A DNA stretch of 64,000 nucleotides from the NCBI GenBank assembly GCA_017347445.1, contig AP021856.1, positions 2,612,613 to 2,676,612 on the forward strand. Direction: 5' to 3'. Of the stretch, positions 22,990-38,993 are shown piece by piece. The notes under the pieces were generated by a model, which ran no database searches, was not told where the DNA came from, and worked only from the letters and a program-made list of their open reading frames with translations. Positions within the stretch are counted from its first letter, which is position 1; every line of letters starts with the position of its first letter. Made by a program: the position numbers and the translations under genes. This DNA comes from Candidatus Brocadia pituitae (lineage in GTDB: Bacteria; Planctomycetota; Brocadiia; Brocadiales; Brocadiaceae).

Positions 22990-23124
22990 TTAATCAACAG
23001 AATCATATATTTGCATCGGGTATACCCCGTATTGACCCGCTATCTCGTTCGCCGTCTTCTCCCCCTTTATTGCTTCTATTGCCACTCTCGCCTTAAATTC
23101 CTCAGTATACTGCTTCTTCTCCAT
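22990..23124 (-). pseudogene. IS3-family transposase OrfA, N-terminal fragment
   Basis: 44 residues beginning [21 protein letters not shown], then [15 protein letters not shown]: the helix-turn-helix N-terminus of IS3-family OrfA proteins (Pfam transposase_8 type). The frame ends at TAA immediately after, where a full OrfA would run to ~90-100 residues and be followed by the DDE-containing OrfB. It is therefore a decayed copy. Confidence 0.75.
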
Positions 23125-23283: not shown

Positions 23284-23313
23284 TTGACATTAAACCTTAC
23301 ACAGTTTTACAAT
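23284..23313 (+). promoter_or_regulatory. Sigma-70 promoter driving the riboswitch leader
   Basis: TTGACA (23284-23289), 18-nt spacer, TACAAT (23308-23313). It is a strong match placed about 15-20 nt before the first paired bases of the aptamer, so transcription would start with the riboswitch. Confidence 0.7.
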
Positions 23314-23325
23314 ATGGAAGTTAGA

Positions 23326-23428
23326 TGCATCTCGATAAAGGCAAACCCTGAACGATCAGGGGGCGCAAAGTAAAGGGTCCTAATTTTACAAGGAAGTAAG
23401 GACAAGAAAAGACAGCCTTACTGCCGAA
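23326..23428 (+). ncRNA. Cyclic-di-GMP-I (GEMM-I) riboswitch aptamer
   Basis: Conserved GEMM-I blocks in order: AAAGGCAAACC (23337-23347), a hairpin CCCTGA-ACGA-TCAGGG (P1b with tetraloop), GGCGCAAAG, then GGGTCCTAA (tetraloop-receptor side), a second hairpin, and the 3' strand GACAGCC..ACTGCC. GGCA (23340-23343) pairs with TGCC (23422-23425), and CATCT (near 23328) pairs with AGATG to lengthen P1. By alignment to the well-studied Vc2 RNA, the guanine equivalent to G20 is kept, which favours c-di-GMP over the cGAMP-sensing variant. The 3' strand overlaps the 5' arm of a terminator, so ligand binding should prevent termination (ON switch). That mechanism is inference from the overlap. Confidence 0.82.
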
Positions 23429-23471
23429 GATGTTTATAATATTAAATATCTTTGCAGTAAGGCTTTTTTAT
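23414..23471 (+). terminator. Rho-independent terminator of the riboswitch expression platform
   Basis: Perfect 11-bp stem AGCCTTACTGC (23414-23424) / GCAGTAAGGCT (23454-23464), with an inner AAGAT/ATCTT extension, followed by TTTTTTA. The 5' arm is the same sequence that closes the aptamer's P1, so the two structures are mutually exclusive. The ATG of the next gene lies 14 nt beyond. Confidence 0.85.
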
Positions 23472-23484
23472 TTACGATCTTCCT

Positions 23485-23790
23485 ATGAAAGAAAACCCGT
23501 TAGTTTCAGTTATTATCCCTTCATATAATTCCAGTCAATACCTCTTTCAATGTTTGGACGCCATCAAATCATCGGAATATACTAATTACAAAATAATTGT
23601 TGTTGACGATGCATCTATTGATAAAAGCCCGGAAATTGCAAGGCAAACGAGAACGCGTCTTATTCAAATGGATAAACAATCAGGACCAGAGGCAGCACGG
23701 AATACTGGAGTTCAGCGTGCATACAGATATTATTTACCGTGCTATTCCCCGGGTGAATCTCATTATTGCATCAGTCATCATGTTGCGCTA
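23485..23790 (+). pseudogene. Family-2 glycosyltransferase, N-terminal fragment
   Basis: The first ~77 residues are a clear GT-A start: PLVSVIIPSYNSSQYL, KIIVVDDASIDKS, then GPEAARNTGVQ, just before the expected DxD motif. After this the sequence (RAYRYYLPCYSPG...) no longer resembles a glycosyltransferase, and the frame runs into an IS630 element. The rest of the gene is not found after the IS, so a deletion accompanied or preceded the insertion. This was the first gene under the riboswitch. It should be inactive. Confidence 0.75.
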
Positions 23791-24935
23791 GTGTATACTT
23801 GCAAAAATAAGTTAAATATAGTAGACTCCTTTTATTTCTATATGAAGGAGGTCTGCCATGCCAAGAAAAGCACCAATACCTTGTTGTTCGGAGCAAGATC
23901 GGCAGATTCTTGCCGAATGGGCTAATAGTCGGAGTGCAGAGTGGAGGCTTGTTGGACGAGCTAAAATCATGAACATGCTGCTTGCCGGAGAGCAGGTGAA
24001 TAAGGTGGCCACAGCCCTTGGGACATCCCAGAAAACTGTTATTGAGTGGCGTGGTCGCTTTAGTACAAACGGGATCAAAGGCTTGTACGATCTGCCTCGT
24101 TCCGGCAAACCTGCGAAATATGATAAGGAGTTTCGCAATCAGGTTTTGAAGACATTGGAGCTTGAGCCGCCAAAAGGACAGGCAAGTTGGGATGGTCCCT
24201 CCCTTGCAAAGCATTTGGGGGCATCAGACGATGCCATCTGGCGTATTCTTCGAAAGGAAGGCATTTGCCTTGCGCGGCAAAGAAGCTGGTGTGTGAGTAC
24301 TGACCCGGAATTTACGACCAAGGCGGCTGATATCGTAGGTTTATACCTGTCCCCGCCAGAGAATGCCATAGTGATTTCTGTTGACGAAAAGCCAAGTATA
24401 CAAGCTTTAGAGCGAACCAAAGGCTATGTATGTACAAGCAACAGAAAAATCGTACATGGTCTTAAAAGTACCTATAAGCGTCATGGGACGCTGAACCTGT
24501 TTGCAGCTCTCAACGTGGCAACAGGAACTATTCATACGCAAACAACAGAATTAAAAAGACGAGTGGAATTTCTGGCATTCATGGATCAACTGCTTTTGGA
24601 TTTACCGGATAGCGACAAGAAGGAAATCCATGTTATTCTCGACAACTACTGTATTCACAAGCGAAACGGGGAATGGTTGGCAGCACACCCGAATGTTAAA
24701 TTCCATTTTACACCTACTTCTGCAAGTTGGCTCAATCAGGTGGAAATATGGTTTGGTATTCTTTCGAGAAAAGCTTTGAAGAACGCCAGCTTTAAAAGTG
24801 TTGAGCAATTGAGGTGTGCAATCGAGGCATTCATCGAAGCTTATCAACCGAATGCAAAACCTTTCGTGTGGCGTAAGAGAGAGGTTAAGGGTTCGCAATT
24901 AAGAAATACTATAATGAATTTATGCAATTAAGCAC
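23791..24935 (+). mobile_element. IS630-family insertion sequence, apparently complete
   Basis: 1145 bp flanked on both sides by TA (23789-23790 and 24936-24937; both inside CTAG), as expected for IS630 target duplication. Imperfect terminal inverted repeats: left GTGTATACTTGCAAAAAT against right GTGCTTAATTGCATAAAT (14 of 18 identical). It carries one intact transposase gene on the same strand as the glycan genes, so read-through from its promoter could reach them. Confidence 0.85.
23858..24931 (+). CDS. IS630-family transposase
   Basis: 357 residues, full length. The N-terminal helix-turn-helix region (NKVATALGTSQKTVIEWRGRF) is followed by a winged-helix segment. The DDE/RNase-H catalytic core has the three acids in VISVDEKPSIQ, HVILDNYCIHK and LNQVEIWFGIL. 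Start ATG follows GGAGG-rich sequence (AAGGAGGTCTGCC). No frameshift is present, so it is probably active. The reading frame covers nearly the whole element. Confidence 0.95.
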   Translation: MPRKAPIPCCSEQDRQILAEWANSRSAEWRLVGRAKIMNMLLAGEQVNKVATALGTSQKTVIEWRGRFSTNGIKGLYDLPRSGKPAKYDKEFRNQVLKTLELEPPKGQASWDGPSLAKHLGASDDAIWRILRKEGICLARQRSWCVSTDPEFTTKAADIVGLYLSPPENAIVISVDEKPSIQALERTKGYVCTSNRKIVHGLKSTYKRHGTLNLFAALNVATGTIHTQTTELKRRVEFLAFMDQLLLDLPDSDKKEIHVILDNYCIHKRNGEWLAAHPNVKFHFTPTSASWLNQVEIWFGILSRKALKNASFKSVEQLRCAIEAFIEAYQPNAKPFVWRKREVKGSQLRNTIMNLCN

Positions 24936-24982
24936 TAGCAACACCCTGAAACGATGAAAATGGGCTTTCTAGCTATATAGTA

Positions 24983-25011
24983 TTGACTTATTTACACTTA
25001 CTCTTTTTTAT
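24983..25011 (+). promoter_or_regulatory. Possible promoter downstream of IS630
   Basis: TTGACT (24983-24988), 17-nt spacer, TTTTAT (25006-25011), about 110 nt before the ATG of the glycosyltransferase at 25128. The -10 match is moderate. If real, it would let the glycan genes be transcribed independently of the riboswitch. Confidence 0.35.
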
Positions 25012-25127
25012 CACACCTTATTTTCGAACCAGAAATTATGATTGCGGTACTCAGTAACCTTGATACAATTTAAGGCAAAACAGTATTTAAATCTATTGCC
25101 GCAATTTGTCATTTACATAGGTATCCT

Positions 25128-26117
25128 ATGGAACGTACTAACCAGAATGATGTTACTACTCAAATAGCTTATTATCCTATGGTGCTTTTGGTCATTGTTA
25201 ACTGGAACGGTAAGCAGGATTTATTGGAATGCCTTACTTCGATATATAAATTACAATACCCCAGAGATAACTATAAGGTGCTTGTCGTAGATAATGCATC
25301 GAGAGACGGATCACAGGAAGCTGTTTCCAGGTATTATCCGGAGGTTTGTATCCTCAAGAACAAAGAAAATCTTGGTTATGTAAAAGCGGTAAACCAGGGT
25401 ATTACGTATGGCCTGCATAAAGACATGGATTACATTTGGATTTTTAATAATGACGTCGTAGTAGAAGAGAATTCACTAAAAAGACTCGTAGAAGTTGGTC
25501 AATATGATAAAAACAATGGTATCATTGCTCCGGTCATATATTCTTATAGTAATCCTGAACGCATCGATAATATTGGTTATAAGATAAATTATTGGACCGG
25601 TAGACTGAAAAAAATGAAATATGGTCGAGATGTTTTTTGTAATACCAAAGAAGAAATAGCCAGTGTTGATTCCATACTGGGATGTTCAAATCTGGTAAAG
25701 GCGTCTGTTTTCAAAAAAATTGGTATGTATCAAACAATTTATGAACTCTATTTTGAAGAAACAGATTTTAATGTACGGGCCAAAAAAACTAATTTTAGGG
25801 TTGTTGTTGTAAAAGGAGCAAGGGTGTGGCACAAAAACGCCTCTACTATGAATAAATTCATCTTCCGCAGGGCTTATCTCCTTTTAAGGAATCTTTTTTT
25901 ATTCGAACTATTCAATGCCCGATTCATACATTTACTGGTCTTTATTCCATATTTTTTTATTGTCCATATTCCTTATTTCTTTCTACGTGGAAGTATCTAT
26001 GGTCTTACCGTCACATTAATGGAAAGGAGAAAAAGGCGTTCTTCTTCTGTGGTCCCGGTGTTACAAGGAAAAACTTCAGAGATGGATACTTCAAAATACA
26101 AGGAAAATAATGTTTAA
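25128..26117 (+). CDS. Family-2 glycosyltransferase (rhamnosyltransferase-like)
   Basis: 329 residues. GT-A fold: VLLVIVNWNGKQDLLECL, VLVVDNASRDGS, NLGYVKAVNQG, FNNDVVV in the DxD position, and FEETDFNVR as the acceptor-side acidic motif. The wording is that of the WcaA/RfbF-like group that often transfers rhamnose or related sugars. A hydrophobic pair of helices near residues 265-300 may hold it to the inner membrane. First intact gene after the IS. Donor and acceptor are unknown. Confidence 0.85.
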   Translation: MERTNQNDVTTQIAYYPMVLLVIVNWNGKQDLLECLTSIYKLQYPRDNYKVLVVDNASRDGSQEAVSRYYPEVCILKNKENLGYVKAVNQGITYGLHKDMDYIWIFNNDVVVEENSLKRLVEVGQYDKNNGIIAPVIYSYSNPERIDNIGYKINYWTGRLKKMKYGRDVFCNTKEEIASVDSILGCSNLVKASVFKKIGMYQTIYELYFEETDFNVRAKKTNFRVVVVKGARVWHKNASTMNKFIFRRAYLLLRNLFLFELFNARFIHLLVFIPYFFIVHIPYFFLRGSIYGLTVTLMERRKRRSSSVVPVLQGKTSEMDTSKYKENNV

Positions 26118-26207
26118 TTTTGTATTATTAAGTAAGGTTTTTTCAAGGAAACCTTGTCGAATGTTTTTTTCTAACTCTATTTTTATAAACCACTGAAAGC
26201 AAGAAGC

Positions 26208-27305
26208 ATGGCAACTTTTTATCAAAAGATAAATCTTTTCCGAGGATTAATGAGCGGTGATACTGCGTATACAGGGCCATTTCATGTAAACATCGATTTA
26301 ACCAGCAATTGTAATCTTCGGTGTCCAGGCTGCCAGTATCATTCACCTTATATAAGCATTCCATCTCAGGGTAATCATACAACAAAAGAGATCCCTCTTG
26401 ATTTTTTTAAGAGGCTCTGTAGAGAGCTGAAACAAAAGGGTACAAATAGTATCCTCCTTATGGGCGAAGGTGAACCGTTCCTTCACCCTCGCCTTTATGA
26501 CATCGTTTATGCTGCCAAAGAGACGGGAAGCAAGGTTACCTTGCTGACCAATGGTACCCTATTGAACGAAAACACACCCCACTCTCTCATACATTCAGGA
26601 TTAGATATACTGCGGGTGAGCCTTTGGTCCACCTCCCGCGAAGAATATGAACAAACGTACCCTCAATCGAACCCCAATAATTTTAATAAGATCATTGATG
26701 GAATGAAATTTCTGTCACAATTCAAAGTAAAACAAAAGATAAAATCCCCGTCGCTCATAGTGCACTACCCTATTAACCGGTATAATTTTAAAAGAATCGA
26801 GGCGTTAACAGAGCTGGCTATTATAACTGGTTGTGATGGTGTATCCTTTTCTGCATTTGCTACCAGATGGGGTAAATTATCTTCATTTACCCTTTCAGCA
26901 GAGGAAGAAATATTTGTATCTCTTACGCTTAAAAAGGTAAAAGAGCGATTAAATTCAGTTTCCTTATTCCACAATATTGATGAGATCCTTTTACGATATA
27001 AAATTGGTGAAGCTGTATGGAACAAATTACCCTGTTATATTGGATGGTTTAGCGCCCACATTAAAGCGGACGGCACTGTTATGCCTTGTTGCCGGTGCGA
27101 TCTCCCTATGGGTAATCTGAAAAAAGAGAGTCTCCATGAAATCTGGAATAATAATGCTTATGCAACATTTCGCAGAAAGGCAATCACGCGCGCAGGGTTA
27201 CTTGCTTTAGGGGAAGATTGTGACTGCGGTTTCTGCAGTGCTGTATATGATAATGTACGTATTCATCGATTACTTAAGTGGGTTAAACCTTTTGCTGATA
27301 ATTAG
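26208..27305 (+). CDS. Radical SAM/SPASM-like protein, family A copy 1
   Basis: 365 residues. CNLRCPGC supplies the SAM-cluster cysteines C35, C39 and C42. GEGEPFLHP follows as the SAM-binding glycine motif. The C-terminus holds a Cys-rich auxiliary-cluster region: LPCYIGW, TVMPCCRCDLPMGNL, and CDCGFC. This architecture fits SPASM/twitch enzymes. Its closest relative in the window is the product at 28282, which shares the LLRYKIGEAVW and CDLPMGNL blocks. It is adjacent to GT2 genes, suggesting modification of a sugar, lipid carrier or peptide in glycan assembly. The reaction is unknown. It could alternatively modify a peptide, as many SPASM enzymes do, but no small precursor gene is visible. 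Confidence 0.8.
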   Translation: MATFYQKINLFRGLMSGDTAYTGPFHVNIDLTSNCNLRCPGCQYHSPYISIPSQGNHTTKEIPLDFFKRLCRELKQKGTNSILLMGEGEPFLHPRLYDIVYAAKETGSKVTLLTNGTLLNENTPHSLIHSGLDILRVSLWSTSREEYEQTYPQSNPNNFNKIIDGMKFLSQFKVKQKIKSPSLIVHYPINRYNFKRIEALTELAIITGCDGVSFSAFATRWGKLSSFTLSAEEEIFVSLTLKKVKERLNSVSLFHNIDEILLRYKIGEAVWNKLPCYIGWFSAHIKADGTVMPCCRCDLPMGNLKKESLHEIWNNNAYATFRRKAITRAGLLALGEDCDCGFCSAVYDNVRIHRLLKWVKPFADN

Positions 27306-27374
27306 AGTAATTAAAAATAATGTCTTGCGCACAATACATGCAAAAGAATACTTGTTCTAACTCACGAAATACAA

Positions 27375-28289
27375 ATGGAACCAACCAACAGGCATAAAAC
27401 AGAAGTATCGATCATCGTAGGGGTTACTCCAAGAAAAGGATTTAATAGCATTTTCAATTTACTGGAAACTATTTTTTCACAAAAAGGAGATATTACTTTT
27501 GAGTGTATTGTCGTAGACGTCTTCGACAAGCAGAGGGAAAAAATTTACCGGGAACAGTTTCCTCGTGTTAAAGTAATACAAACAGAAACATTATTATACG
27601 AACCATGTTTACGCAATATCGGAGTGAAACAGGCTCAAAGTGAAATTATTACCTTTCTGGAGGATCATATTCTTTTATCTCCTTCTTATCTCAAAAACCT
27701 TGTTAAATTGTTCTCTAACGGATATAAAATTGTTGGTGGAACAGTTGCGAATGCAAATCCGAAAAGTTTCTTTGGTTGGATACAATATTTTTGTGAATAT
27801 AATAAATGGCTTCCTGGTTTACCGGATGGAAAAGTGAAAGACCTTCCTGGTTGCAATTTCTCATATCATGCTGAAGTTTTAAAAAAACTCGGGCCTTTTC
27901 CAGAGGGAGAATTCGGAGTTGAAACTTACTTCCACAAAAAGGCAAGAGATGCTGGCTATAATCTTTACCTTTGTTCAGGGCTTGAAGTAGCGCATGTCAA
28001 TGATGCGATGTTACGGCTCACCTCGATAGCACGTTTTAAATATGGACAACTCTTTGCGGCAAGACGCGGTTTTTCCCGAATGAAGCAAGTTCTTTATATC
28101 GTTCTCTCGCCAGTCATAGCTATTTTGGAATATGTACGGATTTTTAAGCATACGAGGCATAATTCTTTCTATTTGGAAAAACTTATCCAATGTACTCCCT
28201 TCCTTTTGCCCATACTGTTTATTTGGATGATGGGAGAGTGTTCTGGTTATATTTCCGGATACGGGAGGCCAAAAACAAAAAATGGTTAG
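27375..28289 (+). CDS. Family-2 glycosyltransferase, type A copy 1
   Basis: 304 residues. GT-A core (VSIIVGVTPRKG, CIVVDVFDKQ, LRNIGVKQAQSEIITFLEDH in the DxD position) followed by GWIQYFCEYNKWLPGLPDG and LPGCNFSYHAEVL, then C-terminal hydrophobic helices. It is clearly paralogous to the product at 31495 (shared KQREKIY, YFCEYNKW, LPGLPDG, LPGCNF). The DxD position is LEDHI, so metal binding may be altered. It overlaps the following radical SAM gene by 8 nt, indicating coupled translation. Confidence 0.82.
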   Translation: MEPTNRHKTEVSIIVGVTPRKGFNSIFNLLETIFSQKGDITFECIVVDVFDKQREKIYREQFPRVKVIQTETLLYEPCLRNIGVKQAQSEIITFLEDHILLSPSYLKNLVKLFSNGYKIVGGTVANANPKSFFGWIQYFCEYNKWLPGLPDGKVKDLPGCNFSYHAEVLKKLGPFPEGEFGVETYFHKKARDAGYNLYLCSGLEVAHVNDAMLRLTSIARFKYGQLFAARRGFSRMKQVLYIVLSPVIAILEYVRIFKHTRHNSFYLEKLIQCTPFLLPILFIWMMGECSGYISGYGRPKTKNG

Positions 28290-29394
28290 TTTCTCGCAGA
28301 AGATAAATTTTGTGAAAGGTTTCCTTACAGGTGAGACAGCCTTTGGCGGTCCTTCTTACGTTTCCATAGATGTGACCAGGAGGTGTAATCTCCAATGTCT
28401 TTGTTGCCTCTATCATTCCCCGCTGGTGGAGGTATCAGCGAAAGAAGATCTATCCATGGATATATCACCGGATTTATTTCATGAAGTATGCAGTGAATTA
28501 AAAACGATGGGAACAAATTTAATAATCATAGAAGGAGAAGGTGAACCTCTGCTTCATGCCCGTATCTTTGATTTAATCTCAATAGCAAAAAGCATGGGGT
28601 TTCAGGTGATGTTATTTACGAATGGTATTTTGCTTGATGAGACGAGGGTGCTTCACATTATAGATTTGAAGGTAAATATTCTTAAAGTCAGCCTTTGGGC
28701 AAGCTCTCCTGAAGATTATGCTCAGAACTATCCAAAATCAGATATACGTAATTTTGAAAGAGTAATTGACGGACTAAAATTATTGACTCATCTAAAATCT
28801 AAAAAAAAGACCTCTTTTCCTTTCGTTGAATTGTGCAATCCAATCAATCTTTATAACTTCCAAAAAACCGAGAAAATGCTCGACCTTCTCTTCGCTACAG
28901 GTTGTAATAGTCTCTTCTTTTCCCCTGTCAATAGTCATCAAGGAAGATTTGCATCATTCTCCCTCTCTCCTGACGAAGAAAAGTTATTCATACTCTCGTT
29001 AAAGGAAATAAAAAAAAGATTGGATTCAGCGTCTACACACCATAACATTGATCAGGTTCTCCTGCGTTATAAGATTGGTGAAGCTGTGTGGGAAAAGCTT
29101 CCCTGCTACATTGCGTGGTATTACAGTCGCATCAAGGTCGATGGTACAATTTTACCTTGTAACCGATGTGACCTTCCCATGGGAAATCTTAATCAATATA
29201 GTTTCTATCATATCTGGAACGCACCAGATTATCGTGCCTTCCGCAGAAAGACCATTACACGAAACGGGCTGTCCCTGTTCAGTAAGCATTGTAATTGCGG
29301 ATTCTGCTGTCATGTTGTGAATAATAAACGCGTTCATGAGATAGCAAGGTGGCTTTCCCCTTTTCCATCAGTATTTAGGAGAAATAGAGGATAA
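28282..29394 (+). CDS. Radical SAM/SPASM-like protein, family A copy 2
   Basis: 370 residues, paralogous to the 26208 gene. CNLQCLCC gives C35, C39 and C42 for the SAM cluster. GEGEPLLHA follows, and C-terminal LPCYIAW, ILPCNRCDLPMGNL and CNCGFCC form the auxiliary-cluster region. It starts inside the preceding glycosyltransferase gene (8-nt overlap) and its stop is one base from the next radical SAM start, so three genes are tightly coupled. Two near-copies in one operon suggest either two similar modification sites or a recent duplication. Confidence 0.8.
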   Translation: MVSFSQKINFVKGFLTGETAFGGPSYVSIDVTRRCNLQCLCCLYHSPLVEVSAKEDLSMDISPDLFHEVCSELKTMGTNLIIIEGEGEPLLHARIFDLISIAKSMGFQVMLFTNGILLDETRVLHIIDLKVNILKVSLWASSPEDYAQNYPKSDIRNFERVIDGLKLLTHLKSKKKTSFPFVELCNPINLYNFQKTEKMLDLLFATGCNSLFFSPVNSHQGRFASFSLSPDEEKLFILSLKEIKKRLDSASTHHNIDQVLLRYKIGEAVWEKLPCYIAWYYSRIKVDGTILPCNRCDLPMGNLNQYSFYHIWNAPDYRAFRRKTITRNGLSLFSKHCNCGFCCHVVNNKRVHEIARWLSPFPSVFRRNRG

Positions 29395-29395
29395 A

Positions 29396-30550
29396 ATGTT
29401 TCAGCACTTCATTTCAAAATCTTATGCTGTTGCGAAGGCTTTAATAACGCGGCGGATGCGTATCGATTTTGATGGCATCCCCCATTACTTCCGTAATGTA
29501 CCCCTCAAAAAGATACTCAATTGGATTTGTGTTGAAACATCTCTTTTTACAAAACCAGAAATTCCCTGGGGCTGGCCCACTCATGTCATGATAGAACCGT
29601 CTTCGTATTGCAACCTGAGGTGTCCGCCTTGCCCTGTTACAAAAGGATTGCAAAGACCAAAAGGGTATATGGATATTCATCTCTTTAAAAGGGTCATTGA
29701 TGAAATAGGTGGATATCTGTTTTTTGTCCTCCTCTGGGATTGGGGCGAGCCTTTCCTTAATCCTTTCATTTTTGATATGATCGCATACGCAAATCAGAAA
29801 GGGATAAAGACTATATCCTGTAGCAATGGTCATTCTTTCGCACAGGAGGAAAATGTGGATAAGCTGATTCGCTCCGGTCTTGACACCCTCATTATTGCCA
29901 TGGACGGAGCACATCAAGAGACATACGAACGCTACCGGCAGGGAGGAGATCTTAGCGCAGTTCTTCACGGTATTCATACAATCGTCGCAAGAAAGCGCAA
30001 AACTAGCTCTAAAAAACCTTTCATAAATCTTCGATTCATTGTGATGAAGCATAATGAACACGAAATCCCTGAAATAAAGGACCTGGCAAAATCTCTGGGA
30101 GTAGATGCACTGACATTTTTCACATTGAATCCTTATATAGACAAGATTTATGGAGAAAGCCCCTCTATAAAAGATACATCTGAAGACAAACTTCTTCCTG
30201 AAAACAATCAGTATAAGAGGTTTAGAATGACGCAGGATGGGCAGACACGGATACGCCTGAAGCATAACCCCTGTAAACATCTCTGGAACAATCCTGTCAT
30301 CCACTGGAATGGAACAGTCTGCCCGTGTACCTATGACTATCATGAAAAGTACATCCTTGGTGACCTGAATACGGAGACCTTTCAGAACATCTGGCACGGA
30401 GCCTCATATCGCCATATTCGCAGTAAATTCCGTAGCAACTGGGATAAACTTAGTCTCTGTTGTGAATGCAGTTACGGATATGAAGGGGGAGATCTGGGAC
30501 GCGAGGCCATCGCAGATGCGTTCTTGTTTAATAACCAGCAGCCATTATGA
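29396..30550 (+). CDS. Radical SAM/SPASM protein, family B copy 1
   Basis: 384 residues. A longer N-terminal segment (to ~60) precedes the radical SAM core with CNLRCPPC (C72, C76, C79) and WGEPFLNP. The C-terminus has CKHLWNNPVIHWNGTVCPC and then CCEC in a SPASM arrangement. Family B differs from family A in its N-terminal extension and in the NNPVI..NGTVCPC wording; relatives in the window are at 33805 and 35249. It is followed 26 nt later by a type-B glycosyltransferase, the same pairing found at 35249/36461. Substrate unknown. Confidence 0.82.
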   Translation: MFQHFISKSYAVAKALITRRMRIDFDGIPHYFRNVPLKKILNWICVETSLFTKPEIPWGWPTHVMIEPSSYCNLRCPPCPVTKGLQRPKGYMDIHLFKRVIDEIGGYLFFVLLWDWGEPFLNPFIFDMIAYANQKGIKTISCSNGHSFAQEENVDKLIRSGLDTLIIAMDGAHQETYERYRQGGDLSAVLHGIHTIVARKRKTSSKKPFINLRFIVMKHNEHEIPEIKDLAKSLGVDALTFFTLNPYIDKIYGESPSIKDTSEDKLLPENNQYKRFRMTQDGQTRIRLKHNPCKHLWNNPVIHWNGTVCPCTYDYHEKYILGDLNTETFQNIWHGASYRHIRSKFRSNWDKLSLCCECSYGYEGGDLGREAIADAFLFNNQQPL

Positions 30551-30576
30551 TACTCTTATGATAAAGGCATTCCTTT

Positions 30577-31476
30577 ATGCATAATACACCTCAAGTATCT
30601 GTGGTCATAGCATCTTACAATGCCGAAAAAACAGTAGAACGCTGTCTGCTATCTTTAAGGAATCAGATAACCGATAAGACATTTGAAATAATTGCGGTTG
30701 ACAGTTCCATGGACAATACCCAAAAACTTATTATGAAAAAATTTCCTGAAGTCCGGCTGTACACGTTTCCGGAAAGAAAATTTCCGGGAGATGCGCGCAA
30801 TTTTGGTGTCTCCGTATCCAGCAGTGAAGTCATCGCTTTTATCGACACCGACTGTATTGCTGATAAGAACTGGATAGATCAAATCCTCAGGGCACATCAG
30901 TCATCATATCCCGTAATTGGCGGGGCAATTGCAAATGGAAATCCAGACAATTATATTAGTTGGGCAGCCTATTTCTGTGAATTCAGCCAGTGGATGCCAC
31001 AGCTTTCAACATGCTATATGGATGATATTCCTACCTGCTGCCTTTCAGTAAAACGGTGGGTATTTGAAAAGTACGGACCATTTTTAGAAGGGACGTATTC
31101 TGAAGACACCGCATTCAACTGGAGGTTAACAAGGGATAAACTACCACCTCTCTTTGTCCCTTCTATAAAAATATCGCACATAAATATAAAAAACTTCGGA
31201 GTTTTCCTGCGGAAAGAATTCGTTCATGGAAGATATTTTGCCAGGGTCAGGATACAGGAACAAAAATTCTCCGGATGTAAGAGAATGGTATTTGCTTTTC
31301 TCTTTCCGGTATTACCTTTCGTCTTGTTTTCACGCACATGCAAACGTATGATAAATAATAAGATTTATTTAAAATATTTTATCCTTGCATCACCGCTCGT
31401 ATTTATCGGTTTATTTATATGGGCAATTGGCGAACTTCTTGGATATGTGTCAAGAAGGAAAAGACCGCATCCTTAA
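30577..31476 (+). CDS. Family-2 glycosyltransferase, type B copy 1
   Basis: 299 residues. GT-A motifs: VSVVIASYNAEKTVERCL, IIAVDSSMDNT, ARNFGVSV, and FIDTDCIA with a proper DxD. Then FCEFSQWMP and CCLSVKRWVFEKYGPF, the acidic SEDTAFNWRL, and a C-terminal pair of hydrophobic helices for membrane association. It is paralogous to 36461 (shared EFSQWMP, LSVKRW, TYSEDT). It follows a family-B radical SAM gene by 26 nt and precedes a type-A glycosyltransferase by 18 nt. Confidence 0.85.
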   Translation: MHNTPQVSVVIASYNAEKTVERCLLSLRNQITDKTFEIIAVDSSMDNTQKLIMKKFPEVRLYTFPERKFPGDARNFGVSVSSSEVIAFIDTDCIADKNWIDQILRAHQSSYPVIGGAIANGNPDNYISWAAYFCEFSQWMPQLSTCYMDDIPTCCLSVKRWVFEKYGPFLEGTYSEDTAFNWRLTRDKLPPLFVPSIKISHINIKNFGVFLRKEFVHGRYFARVRIQEQKFSGCKRMVFAFLFPVLPFVLFSRTCKRMINNKIYLKYFILASPLVFIGLFIWAIGELLGYVSRRKRPHP

Positions 31477-31494
31477 CCATGGCAGACAAATAAA

Positions 31495-32430
31495 ATGGAA
31501 CCTGTTAAACAGATACAAGAACCCCTCAAAAACTTTATTATGGTATCAATCATAGTTGCCGTCATGGAGGAAAAAGGGTTAGATACGATATTCACACTGC
31601 TGGATTCATTCTTTCCGCAGGAAGGTGATATCGATTATGAATTTATTGTCGTGGATGAATATAACAAACAAAGAGAAAAAATTTACCATGATCAGTTTCC
31701 ATGGGTTACCCTGATACAAACGGAAAGACTGATGCCAGAATCCTATGCGCGGAACATTGCACTCCGGCATGCACGGGGAAAATTTATTGCTTTTACCACG
31801 GATCACTGTATTTTCCCCCGCCATTATATCAAAAACCTTGTTGCTGAATTTTCAAAGGGATACCGTATCGTTGGCGGCCCTGTCACAAACGCAAACCCGG
31901 AGATATTCACAGGCTGGGTACAATATTTCTGTGAATATAACAAATGGATCCCGGGTCTGCCTGACGGAGAGATAGACGATCTTCCTGGCTGTAATTTTGC
32001 GTACCATGCAGAGCTTCTCAGAAAACTCGGACCTTTACCGGAAGGAGGCTACAGTACCGAAACCCTTTTTCACAGAAAGGCTAAAGAGGCAGACAATAAA
32101 CTTTATTTTTTCGGTGGACTCGAAATCAAGCATACGAATGAGGTTCATTTACCTGTTATATGGAAAGAGCGCTTTTACTATGGAAGGCTGTTTGCCGCAA
32201 GGAGGGGTTTTGCGTTGTGGAGGAGAATTGTGTACATCATCCTCTCTCCTATGATAGCACTCGCTGAATATTTGAGAATTCTTAATCATGCAAGGCGTAA
32301 TTTGCAATATCTGAAGAAATTCATCCACTGTACCCCCCTACTCTTACCAACCTTATTTATATGGATGGCAGGAGAATGCATCGGGTATGCAAGGAATAAG
32401 CAAGACAAAAATGACTATACGCCCTGCTGA
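31495..32430 (+). CDS. Family-2 glycosyltransferase, type A copy 2
   Basis: 311 residues, paralogue of the 27375 gene. VSIIVAVMEEKG, FIVVDEYNKQREKIY, ARNIALRHARGKFIAFTTDHC (DxD position degenerate), GWVQYFCEYNKWIPGLPDG and LPGCNFAYHAELL are conserved. The last ~75 residues contain hydrophobic helices. It is the last plus-strand gene before the minus-strand flippase; their 3' ends overlap by 16 nt, so the two are convergent. Confidence 0.83.
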   Translation: MEPVKQIQEPLKNFIMVSIIVAVMEEKGLDTIFTLLDSFFPQEGDIDYEFIVVDEYNKQREKIYHDQFPWVTLIQTERLMPESYARNIALRHARGKFIAFTTDHCIFPRHYIKNLVAEFSKGYRIVGGPVTNANPEIFTGWVQYFCEYNKWIPGLPDGEIDDLPGCNFAYHAELLRKLGPLPEGGYSTETLFHRKAKEADNKLYFFGGLEIKHTNEVHLPVIWKERFYYGRLFAARRGFALWRRIVYIILSPMIALAEYLRILNHARRNLQYLKKFIHCTPLLLPTLFIWMAGECIGYARNKQDKNDYTPC

Positions 32431-33737
32431 GGTTTAATAATCTCTCCTGTTTGTAAAGTGAGCAATCCGTTCCGCATATACCTGAATACATACAGGATAT
32501 AAAAACCAAGGTCAACTGCATTTATCACCAACAACATAAATGCCGGAGCAATTACACCGAAGAGCGGGATGAGGAAATAGCAACCAATAACCATTGTTAC
32601 TAACTTTACCGCATCGACAAATGCAACTACGTGTGGTTTATTGAGGGAATATAATGCTACATGGATAGCGCTACTAATCGTAAACATAAGATAGCTTATC
32701 ACCAGCACGTTAAAAATAGAAACGCAGTCAATGTACTTTAACCCAAAACAGAAAACAATAATGTTACGGGAAAAGAATATAAAAGGGATAAATATCAATG
32801 CCAGAAGAGTTGAAATCCTCAAGGCATCTTTTATATAATTTTCATATTGCGTTCCTTTTCTGAACTTTGACACCTTTGGCAGGAGTACAGATTGCAAAGA
32901 AGAAATCATTATAGGAAAAATATAACTAAGATTGAGTGCTAGACCAAAGAAACCCGCTGCCTTACTGTCTATAATTTTTGTAATCATAAAAAGACCAACG
33001 TAAGGGAGTAGTAATCTGCAGGTACCCCCTACGAATATCCATTTACTGTATGAAAGAAACCTGCCGATAATCCCCTTCATCACTCTCTTTTCACATCTCA
33101 ATATCACGAAAAACCATTTGAACCCGAACATAAGGCTGAGGAACGGAACGAATGTAAATATTGCGACAGCAACAAGAACATTCATCTGTAAAAAGAATAT
33201 CGAGCCTATTACTGCAAACAGTTTAGCACCATCAACGAAAAGCTGTACAGCAACAGACCACTTGAACAGTTGAAATACATGCAATGTGGATTTCAGATAA
33301 TTTAATAGAGAAACCGATAGGCCACCGAACGCTGCTAATTTGAGGAGTGGCGTTAGTGATGGTATCTGAAACACCTTTTCAGAGAGAAAATCTGCGGTAA
33401 GGAATATAATTCCAGCGAAGAAAGAACCCAGTACCGTAATGACAAAAAAAGAGGCCTTAAGGACATGGAATGCCTCTGCCTTCTTGTTCTCGCAAAGATA
33501 AGATGAGGCAATTGTTACCATAGCAGTATTCATACCAAGGCACGACAAATAAAAAGTTATGGGTATGATCGAGATTGCCACATTGAACAATCCAAAATCG
33601 CTTACGGTAAGTTTTCTGGAAATTATCAATACCGTCAGGAAACCCAGACCGGCAGCAAAAATATTTCCTGAGAAAACAAGGGTAAAATGTCTCATAAATT
33701 GAGACATTGCAAAATTGGTTATGCGTATGAAGTTCAT
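32415..33737 (-). CDS. Polysaccharide flippase (Wzx/MOP superfamily)
   Basis: 440-residue integral membrane protein with about 12 hydrophobic helices. It opens with the family-typical GNIFAAGLGFLTVLIISRKLTVSDFGLFN. MOP-superfamily proteins flip lipid-linked oligosaccharides or teichoic-type intermediates across the inner membrane. In this locus it would export repeat units built by the family-2 glycosyltransferases. It is second in a minus-strand pair after the radical SAM gene at 33805. No Wzy polymerase is obvious in the window. Confidence 0.87.
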   Translation of the reverse strand: MNFIRITNFAMSQFMRHFTLVFSGNIFAAGLGFLTVLIISRKLTVSDFGLFNVAISIIPITFYLSCLGMNTAMVTIASSYLCENKKAEAFHVLKASFFVITVLGSFFAGIIFLTADFLSEKVFQIPSLTPLLKLAAFGGLSVSLLNYLKSTLHVFQLFKWSVAVQLFVDGAKLFAVIGSIFFLQMNVLVAVAIFTFVPFLSLMFGFKWFFVILRCEKRVMKGIIGRFLSYSKWIFVGGTCRLLLPYVGLFMITKIIDSKAAGFFGLALNLSYIFPIMISSLQSVLLPKVSKFRKGTQYENYIKDALRISTLLALIFIPFIFFSRNIIVFCFGLKYIDCVSIFNVLVISYLMFTISSAIHVALYSLNKPHVVAFVDAVKLVTMVIGCYFLIPLFGVIAPAFMLLVINAVDLGFYILYVFRYMRNGLLTLQTGEIIKPQQGV

Positions 33738-33804
33738 TTAATGAATATGAATGCAAGCCTTCTGAATACTGAAACCTTTTTGTTAATCGAAGCACGTTTC
33801 ATTA

Positions 33805-34908
33805 TCAGAAGGACCCCGGGCAGGGGTGATACCAGAAGGCATGAGAGGCGAAATGGTCTACTTCGGCAAAATTAAGCACACAACTGGAACATGGCGAATC
33901 CACTAGTTGTTTTTTTATGAATTGTAACCTCAGTTTGTTGTACAACCGCCCAAACCATACACGACGAACCCCGTGATTATCTTCTGAGAATACATTGCCT
34001 AAAGAATAGTCGGCACTATGGAAATAACAGGGAACAACTGTTCCATCCCGGTAAACAACAGGATTGTTCCAAAATCTGCGACAGGAATTAGGGATTCGAA
34101 TTGCTTCTCCGCCTTGTTTGTATCGGGCGCGACGATATTCAGGATTCTCAGGAAGCAATGTTTCTATATCTGCACTCATATCAATATTCCACAGTGTCTT
34201 AAAAGTCAGCACATCGGCCCCGACTTCTTCTCCTAACTTTTTCATCTGATCAGCTTGATATTCGTTGTCCCGGGTCACTACCATCCGCAGGTTGATTATA
34301 GGAAATAAAGCATTTCGTTGTTGCTTTCGTTGTGTTAACCTCTTAAGCGCCGTCATAACACGGTTGAAATCACCATGACGGCGGTACTTTTCGTAGGTAC
34401 CAGCATCCAATCCGTCCAGGGAAAACATAAGAACGTCAAGTCCTGAATCAATAAGTTCATCCACGTCATGCTCATTTTCAAAGAAATGGCCGTTGGTGCT
34501 GGTAATGATCTTCATCCCCGTGTCTTTGGCGTAACGAATCATCTTGCAGAAATCCTTATTCATGAATGGCTCGCCCCATCCCCACAACTGAAGGAGAAGC
34601 GTGTAATCGCCAATTTCATCAATTAATCGCTTGAATTCATCAAATGACATGGAATCTCGCGGTCTGTTATCGGAAATAGTATAACAAATTGGACATCGCA
34701 AATTACATAAATTGGTAGGTTCAATTTGGAATAATGTCGGATATGCCAGGACAAACGGTAATTTCAACTTGCATGACGTTTCTGCGATAAACCAGTTGAT
34801 CAATCGTTTCCAACTAAGATCCTTGAAATAGAAGGGAATCTTGTCGAATTCAAGAACCAAGCGTCTGGTTCTGAAAACCCTGATTGTTTTTTTAAGTTCG
34901 GCCAACAT
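33805..34908 (-). CDS. Radical SAM/SPASM protein, family B copy 2
   Basis: 367 residues. CNLRCPIC gives C68, C72 and C75, with the downstream WGWGEPFMNK and TSTNGHFF. The C-terminus has CRRFWNNPVVYRDGTVVPCYF and CSSCVLNF, a SPASM-type auxiliary region. It is similar to the 29396 and 35249 products (N-terminal ~60-residue lead, FDKIP/FDGIP and WGEP blocks). It is divergently transcribed from the gene at 35249 across a 340-nt region, and is followed on its own strand by the flippase 67 nt later. Confidence 0.82.
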   Translation of the reverse strand: MLAELKKTIRVFRTRRLVLEFDKIPFYFKDLSWKRLINWFIAETSCKLKLPFVLAYPTLFQIEPTNLCNLRCPICYTISDNRPRDSMSFDEFKRLIDEIGDYTLLLQLWGWGEPFMNKDFCKMIRYAKDTGMKIITSTNGHFFENEHDVDELIDSGLDVLMFSLDGLDAGTYEKYRRHGDFNRVMTALKRLTQRKQQRNALFPIINLRMVVTRDNEYQADQMKKLGEEVGADVLTFKTLWNIDMSADIETLLPENPEYRRARYKQGGEAIRIPNSCRRFWNNPVVYRDGTVVPCYFHSADYSLGNVFSEDNHGVRRVWFGRLYNKLRLQFIKKQLVDSPCSSCVLNFAEVDHFASHAFWYHPCPGSF

Positions 34909-34944
34909 TGCTCATCTTTCAGGCGTAACAGTATGCTTAAGTTT

Positions 34945-34961
34945 AACCATAATCTATGGTT
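34945..34961. promoter_or_regulatory. Dyad symmetry, possible operator
   Basis: Perfect inverted repeat AACCATA-ATC-TATGGTT lying 36 nt before the start of the minus-strand radical SAM gene. A TTGACA-like hexamer on the same strand is at 34977-34982 (reads TGTCAA on the plus strand), but no well-spaced -10 box was found. The position fits an operator or a leader hairpin. Confidence 0.35.
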
Positions 34962-35160
34962 TTTGATGACTCTATCTGTCAATTAAGATGTGGTACATCC
35001 CCTCCTGAAATCAAATGATAAAAAAGCCGCTGCAGAGAAATCATTAAAGCCAAAAATGAGTATAATTGCAATATTTTAATTCTATGCACATTGACTTGTA
35101 TGCCGGGATGTGTAAATGCAGCAATTTTTTTGGTCCGGGAGAATTTATCTAATTTTCAAT

Positions 35161-35189
35161 TTGACTACGTAGTTGTATTGTTTTAAATT
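35161..35189 (+). promoter_or_regulatory. Putative sigma-70 promoter for the radical SAM gene at 35249
   Basis: TTGACT (35161-35166), 17-nt spacer, TAAATT (35184-35189). Spacing and hexamers are identical to the pheA promoter candidate. A 10-bp palindrome ACTACGTAGT (35164-35173) overlaps the -35 box and the spacer and could be an operator. Confidence 0.5.
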
Positions 35190-35248
35190 GTGCTGAATGA
35201 AAATCCGTATTTTATGATTATTCAAAGATTTAACACAAAAGTAATTTC

Positions 35249-36388
35249 ATGAGAAATAAAGAACGCTGGAAGTCCTTGGTAAAATCACCAGAAACAATAT
35301 GGAATCTGCTTTTTTTAGGAAAGTACAATTTTTATTTTGATTTTATGCCTGCTGAATTAAAAAGGATGTCTTTGAAAAAACAAATTAATTTGATAATGTT
35401 TGGATTAAATCTCATTCACAGGCGTATTCATCCCTGGAGCTGGCCCATCCATATGCAAGTAGAAATTACGAATTACTGTAATTTAAAATGCCCGATATGC
35501 CCGACAGGAAATAAAACCCTTAACCGTCCTCCTATGAACATTGACATTTGTCTTTTCGAGAGTCTGATGGATGAAGTAGGACCATACCTTTTAACATTGG
35601 CTCTCTATGCATGGGGAGAACCGCTTTTGCATCCGCAATTATCCGAAATACTTAAGATAACAAGCAAGCATAACATTGTTACCCTTCTTTCAACAAATGG
35701 ACAGAATCTCGAAGACAATCGAGTTTTAGAGGCGCTTATACATTATCCCACCACATATTTGATCGTGGCTATGGACGGGTTGACAGATAAAACCAATTCT
35801 CTTTTTCGAAGGGGAGCAAAACTCGAACATATCCTCGGTGGTGTTAAAAAGTTAGCTGAAATGAAGAGAAAAAAAGGATCTGCATTACCTATTATACATA
35901 TGAGATATATCATTATGAAACACAACCAGCACGAATACCCTTTTATAAAAGAGTTTGCAGAAGATAATATGTTTGATTTTCTTTCAATTCGTACCTTATC
36001 ACCGATAGACTCTCCAGAAATACCCTATATGGAGTTTGTACCAAATACAAAAGAATTTAGTGCCTATACTTATAAAAATGACAAAAGATTAAAGCTAAAC
36101 AATTTTATCTGCATGCATGCCTTTAACTATCCTACCGTTTTTTCTAATGGATGCGTTGTTTCATGCGAGCAGGATTTTAATGCGCAACAACCATATGGCA
36201 TGATTTCAAGAAATGTTTCGTTTAAGGATATCTGGTTTAGCAAAAGAGCTGCCACGATACGAAAAACGATCCGCGACACCCCTTCGAACTACACCTTCTG
36301 CCTCAATTGTCCTTTCGCAGACAGACCGATCAGTTCATGTAGTATCGAGGCATATGATTTGCGCAATATTCACAACCATACGTTATAG
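35249..36388 (+). CDS. Radical SAM/SPASM protein, family B copy 3
   Basis: 379 residues. CNLKCPIC (C77, C81, C84), WGEPLLHP, LSTNGQNL, and a C-terminal auxiliary region with CMHAFNYPTVFSNGCVVSC and CLNCPF. It is closest to the 29396 product, including the HPWSWPIHMQVEITNYC lead-in and the IIMKHNQHEYP segment. It is followed by a type-B glycosyltransferase, so the pair repeats the arrangement at 29396/30577. This suggests duplication of a two-gene cassette. Expression probably starts at the promoter candidate 60-90 nt upstream. Confidence 0.82.
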   Translation: MRNKERWKSLVKSPETIWNLLFLGKYNFYFDFMPAELKRMSLKKQINLIMFGLNLIHRRIHPWSWPIHMQVEITNYCNLKCPICPTGNKTLNRPPMNIDICLFESLMDEVGPYLLTLALYAWGEPLLHPQLSEILKITSKHNIVTLLSTNGQNLEDNRVLEALIHYPTTYLIVAMDGLTDKTNSLFRRGAKLEHILGGVKKLAEMKRKKGSALPIIHMRYIIMKHNQHEYPFIKEFAEDNMFDFLSIRTLSPIDSPEIPYMEFVPNTKEFSAYTYKNDKRLKLNNFICMHAFNYPTVFSNGCVVSCEQDFNAQQPYGMISRNVSFKDIWFSKRAATIRKTIRDTPSNYTFCLNCPFADRPISSCSIEAYDLRNIHNHTL

Positions 36389-36460
36389 CAGACAAAATAC
36401 CCTTGAGAGAAACTAACTTTTGATCACCAATCACACCTCTATTATACTTTTTGTCTTAAA

Positions 36461-37351
36461 ATGAGAGAAATCATGGTTTCGGTAATCATACCGTCCTTTA
36501 ATTCACAACACACGATAGAAAAATGCCTCTATGCCCTGGTAAATCAGAAATGCCAACACAATTATGAAATTATCGTGGTAGATAGTTCTCAGGATAATAC
36601 ATCAAAGATCATACTCCAAAAATTTCCTGATATAGCTTATTATTCTTTCTTTGAACGAAAATATCCGGGAGAGGCAAGAAATTTCGGGACAACAAAGGCT
36701 AACGGTCAAATATTTGCCTTTACCGATTCTGACTGTATCGTAGAGCAGGATTGGATTGAGAAAATTATCGAAGCACATAAAAATCCATCACCTTTGATAG
36801 GAGGAATAATAGATAATGGGAATCCCGAAAGCTATGTTGGATGGGGACACTATTTTAGTGAGTTTAGTCAATGGATGCCAAAAACTACCCCTGATCACAT
36901 TGAAGAGATCCCGGCAGGTTGTTTATCCGTCAAAAGATGGGCATTTGAAAAATACGGACCATTTCCAGCGGGAACCTATTCGGAAGACACCTTATTTAAC
37001 TGGAGATTGAGGGAAAGCCAAGAGCAACTACTCTTTATTCCTGGTATAAAAGTTCGCCATATTAATCAGACAAATTTTTTTAAATTACTTAAGAAACAAG
37101 CAATACATGGGAAATTTTTTGCTATCGTCAGAACATCTACAAAAAAACTTTCTCTATTCCGGAGAAGCATTTTTATACTATTTGCACCGCTATTACCTTT
37201 TGTTTTATTCTACAGGATTTGCATGCGAATGATTCAAAACAAAACTTATGTCAGGCAGTTCATTATGGCTTCTCCAATGGTATTTTTCTTATTAATAAGT
37301 TGGTCTTGGGGAGAATTTTGCGGATATTTATCAAAGACCAGACGATTTTGA
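36461..37351 (+). CDS. Family-2 glycosyltransferase, type B copy 2
   Basis: 296 residues, paralogue of the 30577 gene. VSVIIPSFNSQHTIEKCL, IIVVDSSQDNTS, EARNFGTT and FTDSDCIV with an intact DxD, then FSEFSQWMP, AGCLSVKRWAFEKYGPF, TYSEDTLFNWRL, and C-terminal hydrophobic helices. Start ATG 36461; a second in-frame ATG four codons later is possible. The 72-nt gap from the radical SAM gene suggests one transcript. Confidence 0.85.
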   Translation: MREIMVSVIIPSFNSQHTIEKCLYALVNQKCQHNYEIIVVDSSQDNTSKIILQKFPDIAYYSFFERKYPGEARNFGTTKANGQIFAFTDSDCIVEQDWIEKIIEAHKNPSPLIGGIIDNGNPESYVGWGHYFSEFSQWMPKTTPDHIEEIPAGCLSVKRWAFEKYGPFPAGTYSEDTLFNWRLRESQEQLLFIPGIKVRHINQTNFFKLLKKQAIHGKFFAIVRTSTKKLSLFRRSIFILFAPLLPFVLFYRICMRMIQNKTYVRQFIMASPMVFFLLISWSWGEFCGYLSKTRRF

Positions 37352-37433
37352 AAAATAGCGCCTTTAGCCTTAAATTTCTTTACCTATTTGAATAGAATAA
37401 ATCTTGTATAACAGAAAAGAAGTTACATATCAC

Positions 37434-38993
37434 ATGTTGAAGGCTTTTATTCCTTTTGGAAATCAATTAACCCAGATACTCCGTCTAAAAAGCTTACCCT
37501 TTATCATCATCGGAGTTGGAATCGCAGTACGTTTTTGTCAATATGTATTTGCTAAGTCTCTCTGGCTGGATGAATCTTTACTTGCATTGAATATTGTAAA
37601 CAAATCATTCCCAGAATTCCTAAAACCCTTAGATTACCATCAAGTTGCACCTGTTGGATTTCTTTTCATTGAAAAACTCTTTGTTCAATTATTGGGCAAT
37701 AATGAATATGCATTAAGGCTTTTTCCTTTTATTTGTGGCACAATTTCCCTGTTTCTTTTCTTTAAGATTGCAAAACATCTTCTGGAAAATGAAGCATTTC
37801 TCATTGCATTAACCCTATTTTCATGCTCAGGGTACTTAATTAATTATTCTGCTGAGGCCAAACAGTATTCTACCGATGTCACAATCATTTTATTTTTATA
37901 TGCAACTACCGTACATTTTCAATCGAAAAGATTAAAAATCAACCATATTGCTTCATTTGGCATCATTGGGGCAATAACAATTTGGTTTTCACATCCATCT
38001 GCATTTGTATTAGCAGGTATCGGAATTTGTTTATCACTGTTTTCTATAAAAAGAAAGGATTGGAGAAGGATAAGTCAACTTTCAATTGTCTATATAATTT
38101 GGTTATTCAGTTTTGCAGCTTTTTATATGATCACCTTTCATGATTTTCAAAATACTACATCAACTGGAAATATAGAGACTATGCAAAACGCTTGGACCGG
38201 ATGCTTTACTCCTTTTCCACCAACGTCTTTGTCCGATATCAGATGGTTTGTCAGGACATTCTTTTCTATTTTTAAAAATCCCATCGGCCTTCATTATGTG
38301 GGAATTGCAGTTTTAACGTTTATCATAGGCTGCACATCTCTGTTTTCAAAGAACAGACGGTGGTTTTTCCTTTTGCTATCTCCGGTATTAATTACTTTGA
38401 TTGTGTCAGGATTTCACCTGTACCCCTTCGGATACAGACTGTTATTATTTATTGTCCCTTTGGTACTCCTTTTTATTGCGGAAGGCGCAGAAAGTATTGT
38501 AAACAAAACCAAAGATAGCTTCCCCATGATAGGAATTATACTTCTCTGTTTATTGCTTGCTCAACCAATACTTAAAGCAGCTTATAATCTAATGACCAAA
38601 AATATATATAGGGTAAGACCGATTGAAGACATAAAACCTGTTATGAACTATCTTAAAAAAGAGAAACACGAAGAGGATATTATGTACCTCTATCATGGAT
38701 CAGACATTGCATTTCAATATTATGCAAAGCAATGTGGATTTGATGATGATGACTATATAATAGGGATAAGATCAAGAGAAACCCTGCAAAATTACACAAA
38801 AGATCTAGATAAACTGCGTGGAAACAAGAGGGTTTGGTTGTTATTCACGCATGTTACTAAGTCCGCAGGGGTTGATGAAGAAAAGTTTTTCATCTATTAC
38901 CTCGATAGTATTGGGAAGAGAATTAATCATTTCAAAAGTGAAGGAGCAGCAATTTATCTTTACGATCTGAGCGGAATTGAATTTGAACGATAA
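37434..38993 (+). CDS. GT39/ArnT-like membrane glycosyltransferase
   Basis: 519 residues from ATG 37434; an in-frame TTG at 37404 lacks support. Around ten membrane helices, with the GT-C signature near the N-terminus: SLWLDESLLALNIVNKSF, then DYHQVAPVGFLFIEKL. The acidic LDE loop is where protein-mannosyl and ArnT-type transferases use a polyprenyl-phosphate sugar donor. A periplasmic C-terminal domain (~400-519) follows. It would add a sugar on the periplasmic side of the membrane, from a lipid-linked donor to glycan, lipid or protein. It is last in the plus-strand run, so it may decorate the exported product. Confidence 0.75.
   Translation: MLKAFIPFGNQLTQILRLKSLPFIIIGVGIAVRFCQYVFAKSLWLDESLLALNIVNKSFPEFLKPLDYHQVAPVGFLFIEKLFVQLLGNNEYALRLFPFICGTISLFLFFKIAKHLLENEAFLIALTLFSCSGYLINYSAEAKQYSTDVTIILFLYATTVHFQSKRLKINHIASFGIIGAITIWFSHPSAFVLAGIGICLSLFSIKRKDWRRISQLSIVYIIWLFSFAAFYMITFHDFQNTTSTGNIETMQNAWTGCFTPFPPTSLSDIRWFVRTFFSIFKNPIGLHYVGIAVLTFIIGCTSLFSKNRRWFFLLLSPVLITLIVSGFHLYPFGYRLLLFIVPLVLLFIAEGAESIVNKTKDSFPMIGIILLCLLLAQPILKAAYNLMTKNIYRVRPIEDIKPVMNYLKKEKHEEDIMYLYHGSDIAFQYYAKQCGFDDDDYIIGIRSRETLQNYTKDLDKLRGNKRVWLLFTHVTKSAGVDEEKFFIYYLDSIGKRINHFKSEGAAIYLYDLSGIEFER

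Follow-up and report, generated by a model that had tools for sequence, protein, structure and literature searches.

Among characterised GEMM-I riboswitches, the pilM switch of Geobacter metallireducens is a cGAMP-responsive ON-switch (GEMM-Ib) whose aptamer and terminator exclude each other and whose terminator takes up the ligand-pairing C, and Cd1 of Clostridioides difficile is a c-di-GMP-I OFF-switch that can form its aptamer and terminator at the same time (PMC9262584). In Geobacter sulfurreducens, 17 GEMM-I copies have been reported (PMC6456294), and in anammox granular sludge c-di-GMP levels correlate with matrix production (review PMC11224092). Here we examined a 64,000-nucleotide stretch of a Candidatus Brocadia genome (hereafter the window, to whose positions all coordinates without a contig refer). 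The feature described below is very probably a class I c-di-GMP antitermination riboswitch, one of the roughly 48 similar modules that this genome contains.

An initial annotation of the window had recognised a near-consensus promoter followed by the conserved blocks of a GEMM-I aptamer, and had proposed a covariance-model search. Indeed, the sole Rfam match of the 64-kb window was RF03167 (c-di-GMP-I-GGC, model positions 1-80) at 23331-23429 on the plus strand, with 65.7 bits against a cut-off of 59 and an E-value of 2.7e-13 computed over the entire window and all 4227 Rfam families. RF01051 (c-di-GMP-I) scored 64.3 bits at the same site (cut-off 35). The pairing of P1, P2 and P3 is intact, with 21/21 consensus pairs standard, and the covariance score of this aptamer lies within the best seven of 47 in the genome. 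In an alignment with Vc2, positions G23340, A23367 and C23424 (+) fall at what we take to be the equivalents of G20, A47 and C92 in Vc2 numbering; the first and last of these would be the ligand-pairing bases, as C92 is in known structures, and the adenine would stack between the ligand guanines. The promoter is present as well, a sigma-70-like TTGACA-18-TACAAT at 23284-23313 (+) with 11/12 matches. Its block TTGACATTAAACCTTA is also found upstream of a sister copy of the riboswitch (G000:C1:3713962), and promoter scores of at least 10/12 were obtained for 9/48 copies in the genome versus 2.3% of shuffles. In the predicted fold of a transcript lacking the terminator 3' arm, P1 is extended to outer limits of 23328-23432 (+), formed by 5' CAU at 23328-23330 and 3' AUG at 23430-23432. 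The covariation test for this contiguous extension gave 146 in the genus set against a shuffle maximum of 133, and 88 in the own genome against a shuffle mean of 69 and maximum of 94, values that would lend the extension weak backing.

The aptamer overlaps an intrinsic terminator at 23414-23469 (+). As had been annotated, AGCCUUACUGC (23414-23424) is perfectly complementary to GCAGUAAGGCU (23454-23464) over 11 bp; the hairpin turned out larger than that, with a bulged C, a further 11 bp and a 6-nt loop. In total, 22 bp form at 23414-23464 with -31 kcal/mol (z = -9.0 versus dinucleotide shuffles), and TTTTT follows as the U tract at 23465-23469. MicroRNA family matches at 23404-23473 were below the family cut-offs and were rejected as reflecting the terminator hairpin only. 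The closing strand of the aptamer had also been annotated as the terminator's 5' arm, and 23411-23432 (+) is common to both folds: the 3' strands of P3 and P1 form the terminator 5' arm, and the aptamer and terminator folds are therefore mutually exclusive. C23424 itself has G23454 as its partner in the terminator. Folds of the growing transcript contained an aptamer-type P1 until the terminator 3' arm was made and the terminator afterwards. By equilibrium energies of the full-length RNA, the terminator is ahead of the aptamer fold by more than 20 kcal/mol; therefore, control must be kinetic and decided during transcription.

This overlap recurs. A terminator with at least 10/11 pairs overlapping the aptamer end was found in at least 36/48 copies of the own genome and in 41/52 sampled copies of the genus, versus 1.9% with shuffled downstream sequence, which excludes a chance overlap. 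When 85 copies from several species were compared in register, the shared strand was able to pair with both of its partners in nearly all columns, and in one copy (g44) all three strands are altered together at one position, from U/A/U to G/C/G. The shared strand mostly reads GCCUUACUGC; covariation within it is sparse because it is so highly conserved, and some altered copies retain just one of the two pairings.

Computation thus established the identity of the aptamer, both folds, their mutual exclusion and the recurrence of the design, which is best read as ligand-induced antitermination (ON); ligand, control direction and effect on the genes are predictions. The c-di-GMP-I identity and this logic, already suggested in the initial annotation, are well supported by the covariance model, the core residues, the exclusive folds, the recurrent architecture and the pilM analogue. 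As in a transcriptional ON-switch, the terminator 5' arm overlaps the aptamer strands required for ligand binding. Without c-di-GMP, 23411-23432 would be sequestered in the 22-bp terminator hairpin, and transcription would stop at about 23469, upstream of 23485, where the first start codon lies (OFF). Bound c-di-GMP would pair with G23340 and C23424 and stack on A23367, P1 and P3 would be held, the shared strand would be kept out of the terminator, and RNA polymerase would continue past it (ON).

Taken by itself, the window copy would be an ordinary GEMM-I ON-switch with a broken gene adjacent, and its genome-wide setting is more unusual. The own genome holds about 48 GEMM-I copies, of which 47 were matched by RF03167 and one more by RF01051. 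RF03167 matches per genome number 22-58 across Candidatus Brocadia and 1 to 28 in the family's other genera. In Planctomycetota sampled from outside the order, 0-5 aptamers per genome were counted; this phylum-wide count was filtered more strictly, scored no more than 20 candidates in each genome and serves as an upper-level contrast only. Exact matches to the terminator pattern number more than 100 in GTDB genomes, and among the 80 matches listed all are from Planctomycetota, mostly Brocadia with a few Jettenia, Kuenenia and Scalindua. The terminator cassettes precede secreted, adhesin-like, pseudopilin, autotransporter, polysaccharide and regulatory genes. Among the first downstream genes are those for a GspH-type pseudopilin, an autotransporter, Ig-like, SBBP and kelch-repeat proteins, an amidase, a caspase-like protein, sigma-54 activators, a Polysacc_synt_2 enzyme, and a Cache protein followed by a GGDEF gene. 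A second type of copy, marked by AGCCAUGGGUC/GCCAGGUU, is without the terminator and includes the tandem pair g01 and g03. A tandem pair without a terminator at G000:C1:2195099-2195292 (L031) stands before a very large secreted-type protein, of which a close paralogue is encoded behind a third copy (2295158).

About one third of the copies have 40-150 nt of upstream sequence in common with another copy, mostly with different downstream genes, which suggests duplication of promoter-riboswitch-terminator units, apparently to sites ahead of unrelated genes. Some copies also share P3-loop repeats. The palindromic CAGTTTAAACCGCTTAAACCGTTCAAACGGC is common to the P3 loops of g12, g14, g17, g18, g20, g21, g29 and g48, and its eight occurrences in the genome are all inside riboswitch copies. 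Long P3-loop insertions of the repeat ACCGCAAAGACGCTAAGGTCGCAAAGAAA are found in g41, g45, g46 and g47; in some of these, the 3' half of the aptamer is gone or paralogous SBBP/DUF7948 genes follow downstream.

The window copy had been described as heading a glycan locus, which holds only in part. Intact glycan genes, a possible distal target, do lie downstream, at 25128-38990 (+), encoding glycosyltransferases, radical SAM/SPASM enzymes and a PMT-like protein, with minus-strand flippase-like and radical SAM genes inside the locus at 32415-34908. In this island, several radical SAM/SPASM enzymes are interspersed with family 2 glycosyltransferases. The gene adjacent to the riboswitch, however, a family 2 glycosyltransferase gene, is preserved only as a 5' fragment at 23485-23787 (+), which covers positions 1-80 of 168 of Pfam PF00535 only, and the intact genes start only at 25128. 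Between them lies an 1151-bp IS630-type insertion sequence at 23788-24938 (+; transposase 23858-24931), into which the open reading frame listed from 23485 continues to 23925. The element is one of 16 near-identical copies genome-wide, and its insertion is therefore recent and the element recently active. The sister cassette (G000:C1:3713962-3714060, L050) is 89% identical to the window copy over 313 nt, a stretch that begins at the -35 box and reaches roughly codon 75, and is followed by an intact 488-aa glycosyltransferase gene, to which the fragment is homologous up to about 23720 in an alignment with the sister locus, and then by a FAD-dependent-oxidoreductase-like gene. As judged by this alignment, the window copy appears to be a partial duplicate of the sister cassette, with part of the gene copied along. 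A search of the genus for orthologues of the glycan glycosyltransferase and of the sister glycosyltransferase, meant to tell which riboswitch copy is ancestral, found none that was close enough.

The odds that the window switch has any effect on the glycan genes are about even. Because the truncated gene and the IS630 element intervene, any effect on the genes from 25128 needs read-through. The switch could still be functional and no longer control glycan synthesis, being a partial duplicate of promoter, riboswitch and about 75 codons beside glycan genes that have their own promoter, and we consider this explanation just as probable as not. It is favoured by the 89% identity over 313 nt with a locus where the gene is intact, by the truncation of the gene and the IS630 insertion in the window, and by promoter-like 9/12 sites at 24954-24981 and beyond. 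In addition, a remnant of what is presumably an IS3-type OrfA lies just upstream of the riboswitch, at 22990-23124 (-). The glycan island, moreover, is species-specific within the genus as judged by one glycosyltransferase, whose best relatives there are about 30% identical. A scan of genome contigs found no relatives of the first radical SAM protein. Against this explanation, a simple scan of 23470-25128 found no plus-strand terminator, the transposase is co-oriented with the riboswitch, and the open reading frames 23485-23925 and 23858-24931 overlap, so that read-through from the riboswitch across the IS630 element into the glycan genes may be possible with little polarity.

The window copy is also an outlier in its P2 loop. 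Its P2 hairpin, CCCUGA-ACGA-UCAGGG at 23346-23361 (+), has the non-GNRA loop ACGA, and the sister has AAGA, versus a GNRA tetraloop in at least 42/48 own copies and 97/100 copies from relatives; several other exceptions are alignment shifts around a GNRA, and ANRA-type loops occur among the own copies only in these two. In known structures the GNRA loop of P2 docks on P3, and the tetraloop is common in the c-di-GMP-I class and not strictly required, so that a non-GNRA loop is not disqualifying. It may lower the affinity of the window copy, and both this copy and its sister may need more ligand to respond. If the tetraloop-receptor contact were lost altogether, the window copy could be a decayed one, a constitutive terminator behind an aptamer that no longer binds. 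The rarity of such loops and the broken target gene are in line with decay; however, every aptamer pair and core base is intact, the covariance score is among the best of the genome, and the sister with a similar loop precedes an intact gene, which makes decay an unlikely account of the window copy.

As for the ligand of a functional switch, the G20/A47/C92 core is found in the window copy, in 44/48 own copies and in 100/100 copies of a sample from relatives that is weighted toward high-scoring copies. Because of this core, the window aptamer is predicted to be of the c-di-GMP type. The RF03167 consensus carries G at the A47 position and, judging by this model consensus, the "GGC" label appears to denote a G replacing A47. 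We rejected such an A47G-core variant for the window copy, where A is present at that position, as in all 148 aligned copies. Since the two models differ by only 1.4 bits and A47 is found everywhere, the label implies no altered specificity. A20 was reportedly described by Kellenberger and Nelson in 2015 as the mark of cGAMP types. Among the own copies, this base occurs only in g30, g40 and g46 (G000:C1:2823847, 128045 and 3564239), of which g30 has kept its terminator and has a sigma-54 response regulator downstream. For the window copy, 3',3'-cGAMP as in the Geobacter GEMM-Ib aptamers, with which it has RNA superfamily and ON architecture in common (PMC9262584), is a very improbable ligand, given that position 20 is G beside an intact A47 and C92 and that 16/16 GGDEF proteins of the genome retain the Asp equivalent to PleD D344, with none carrying the Ser signature of a cGAMP synthase such as GacA (Ser347; PMC6456294).

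The window also encodes, at 62195-63829 (-), a response regulator with GGDEF (GGEEF, RxxD I-site) and HD-GYP-like domains, which had been put forward as an enzyme that could set the ligand level. The gene exists as described; a specific link to the riboswitch does not follow, since it lies 39 kb away and is one of 16 GGDEF genes in the genome. The protein is better regarded as a probable unlinked source of c-di-GMP turnover whose proximity would be incidental. Elsewhere in the genome, the g19 cassette (G000:C1:3883850, L046) is followed by a Cache-domain gene and then by a gene for an 863-aa GGDEF protein, an arrangement in which c-di-GMP might feed back on its own synthesis.

The single window copy adds little, and the genome-wide setting matters more. 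We favour, with some reserve, the view that in Candidatus Brocadia a near-uniform cassette, of which each genome has about 22-58 copies, is the main c-di-GMP output, jointly activating surface, adhesion, pilus, polysaccharide and regulator genes and spread by whole-cassette copying. If true, the regulon would rank with the largest known for a single riboswitch class and would offer a direct handle on anammox granule and biofilm formation. Four PilZ proteins were found in the genome, versus about 48 predicted ON-switches that directly name candidate c-di-GMP targets in Brocadia, for which we know of no pure culture. Moreover, the copies provide a natural series of near-identical riboswitches differing by one loop, core base or P3 insert. 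A literature search mostly outside subscription journals found no papers linking Brocadia or anammox to GEMM-I riboswitches, and the unusually large Brocadia network seems undescribed.

Compared with the Rfam families, the window aptamer has the same three-helix architecture, conserved blocks and G20/A47/C92 core and scores above both cut-offs; it differs from RF03167 by A at the A47 position and from both models by the ACGA loop of P2. With pilM it shares exclusive folds and a ligand-pairing C that is part of the terminator, and it differs in phylum and in its predicted ligand, c-di-GMP rather than cGAMP. Correspondingly, it resembles Cd1 in predicted ligand and in transcriptional control; in contrast to the OFF-switch Cd1 with its coexisting folds, it is predicted to be an ON-switch with exclusive folds. 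At the level of the genome, the closest parallel is G. sulfurreducens, which likewise has multiple GEMM-I copies, some in tandem, before envelope, pilus and polysaccharide genes, whereas Brocadia has about 48 copies (22-58 in the genus), a much more uniform cassette and a core of the c-di-GMP type.
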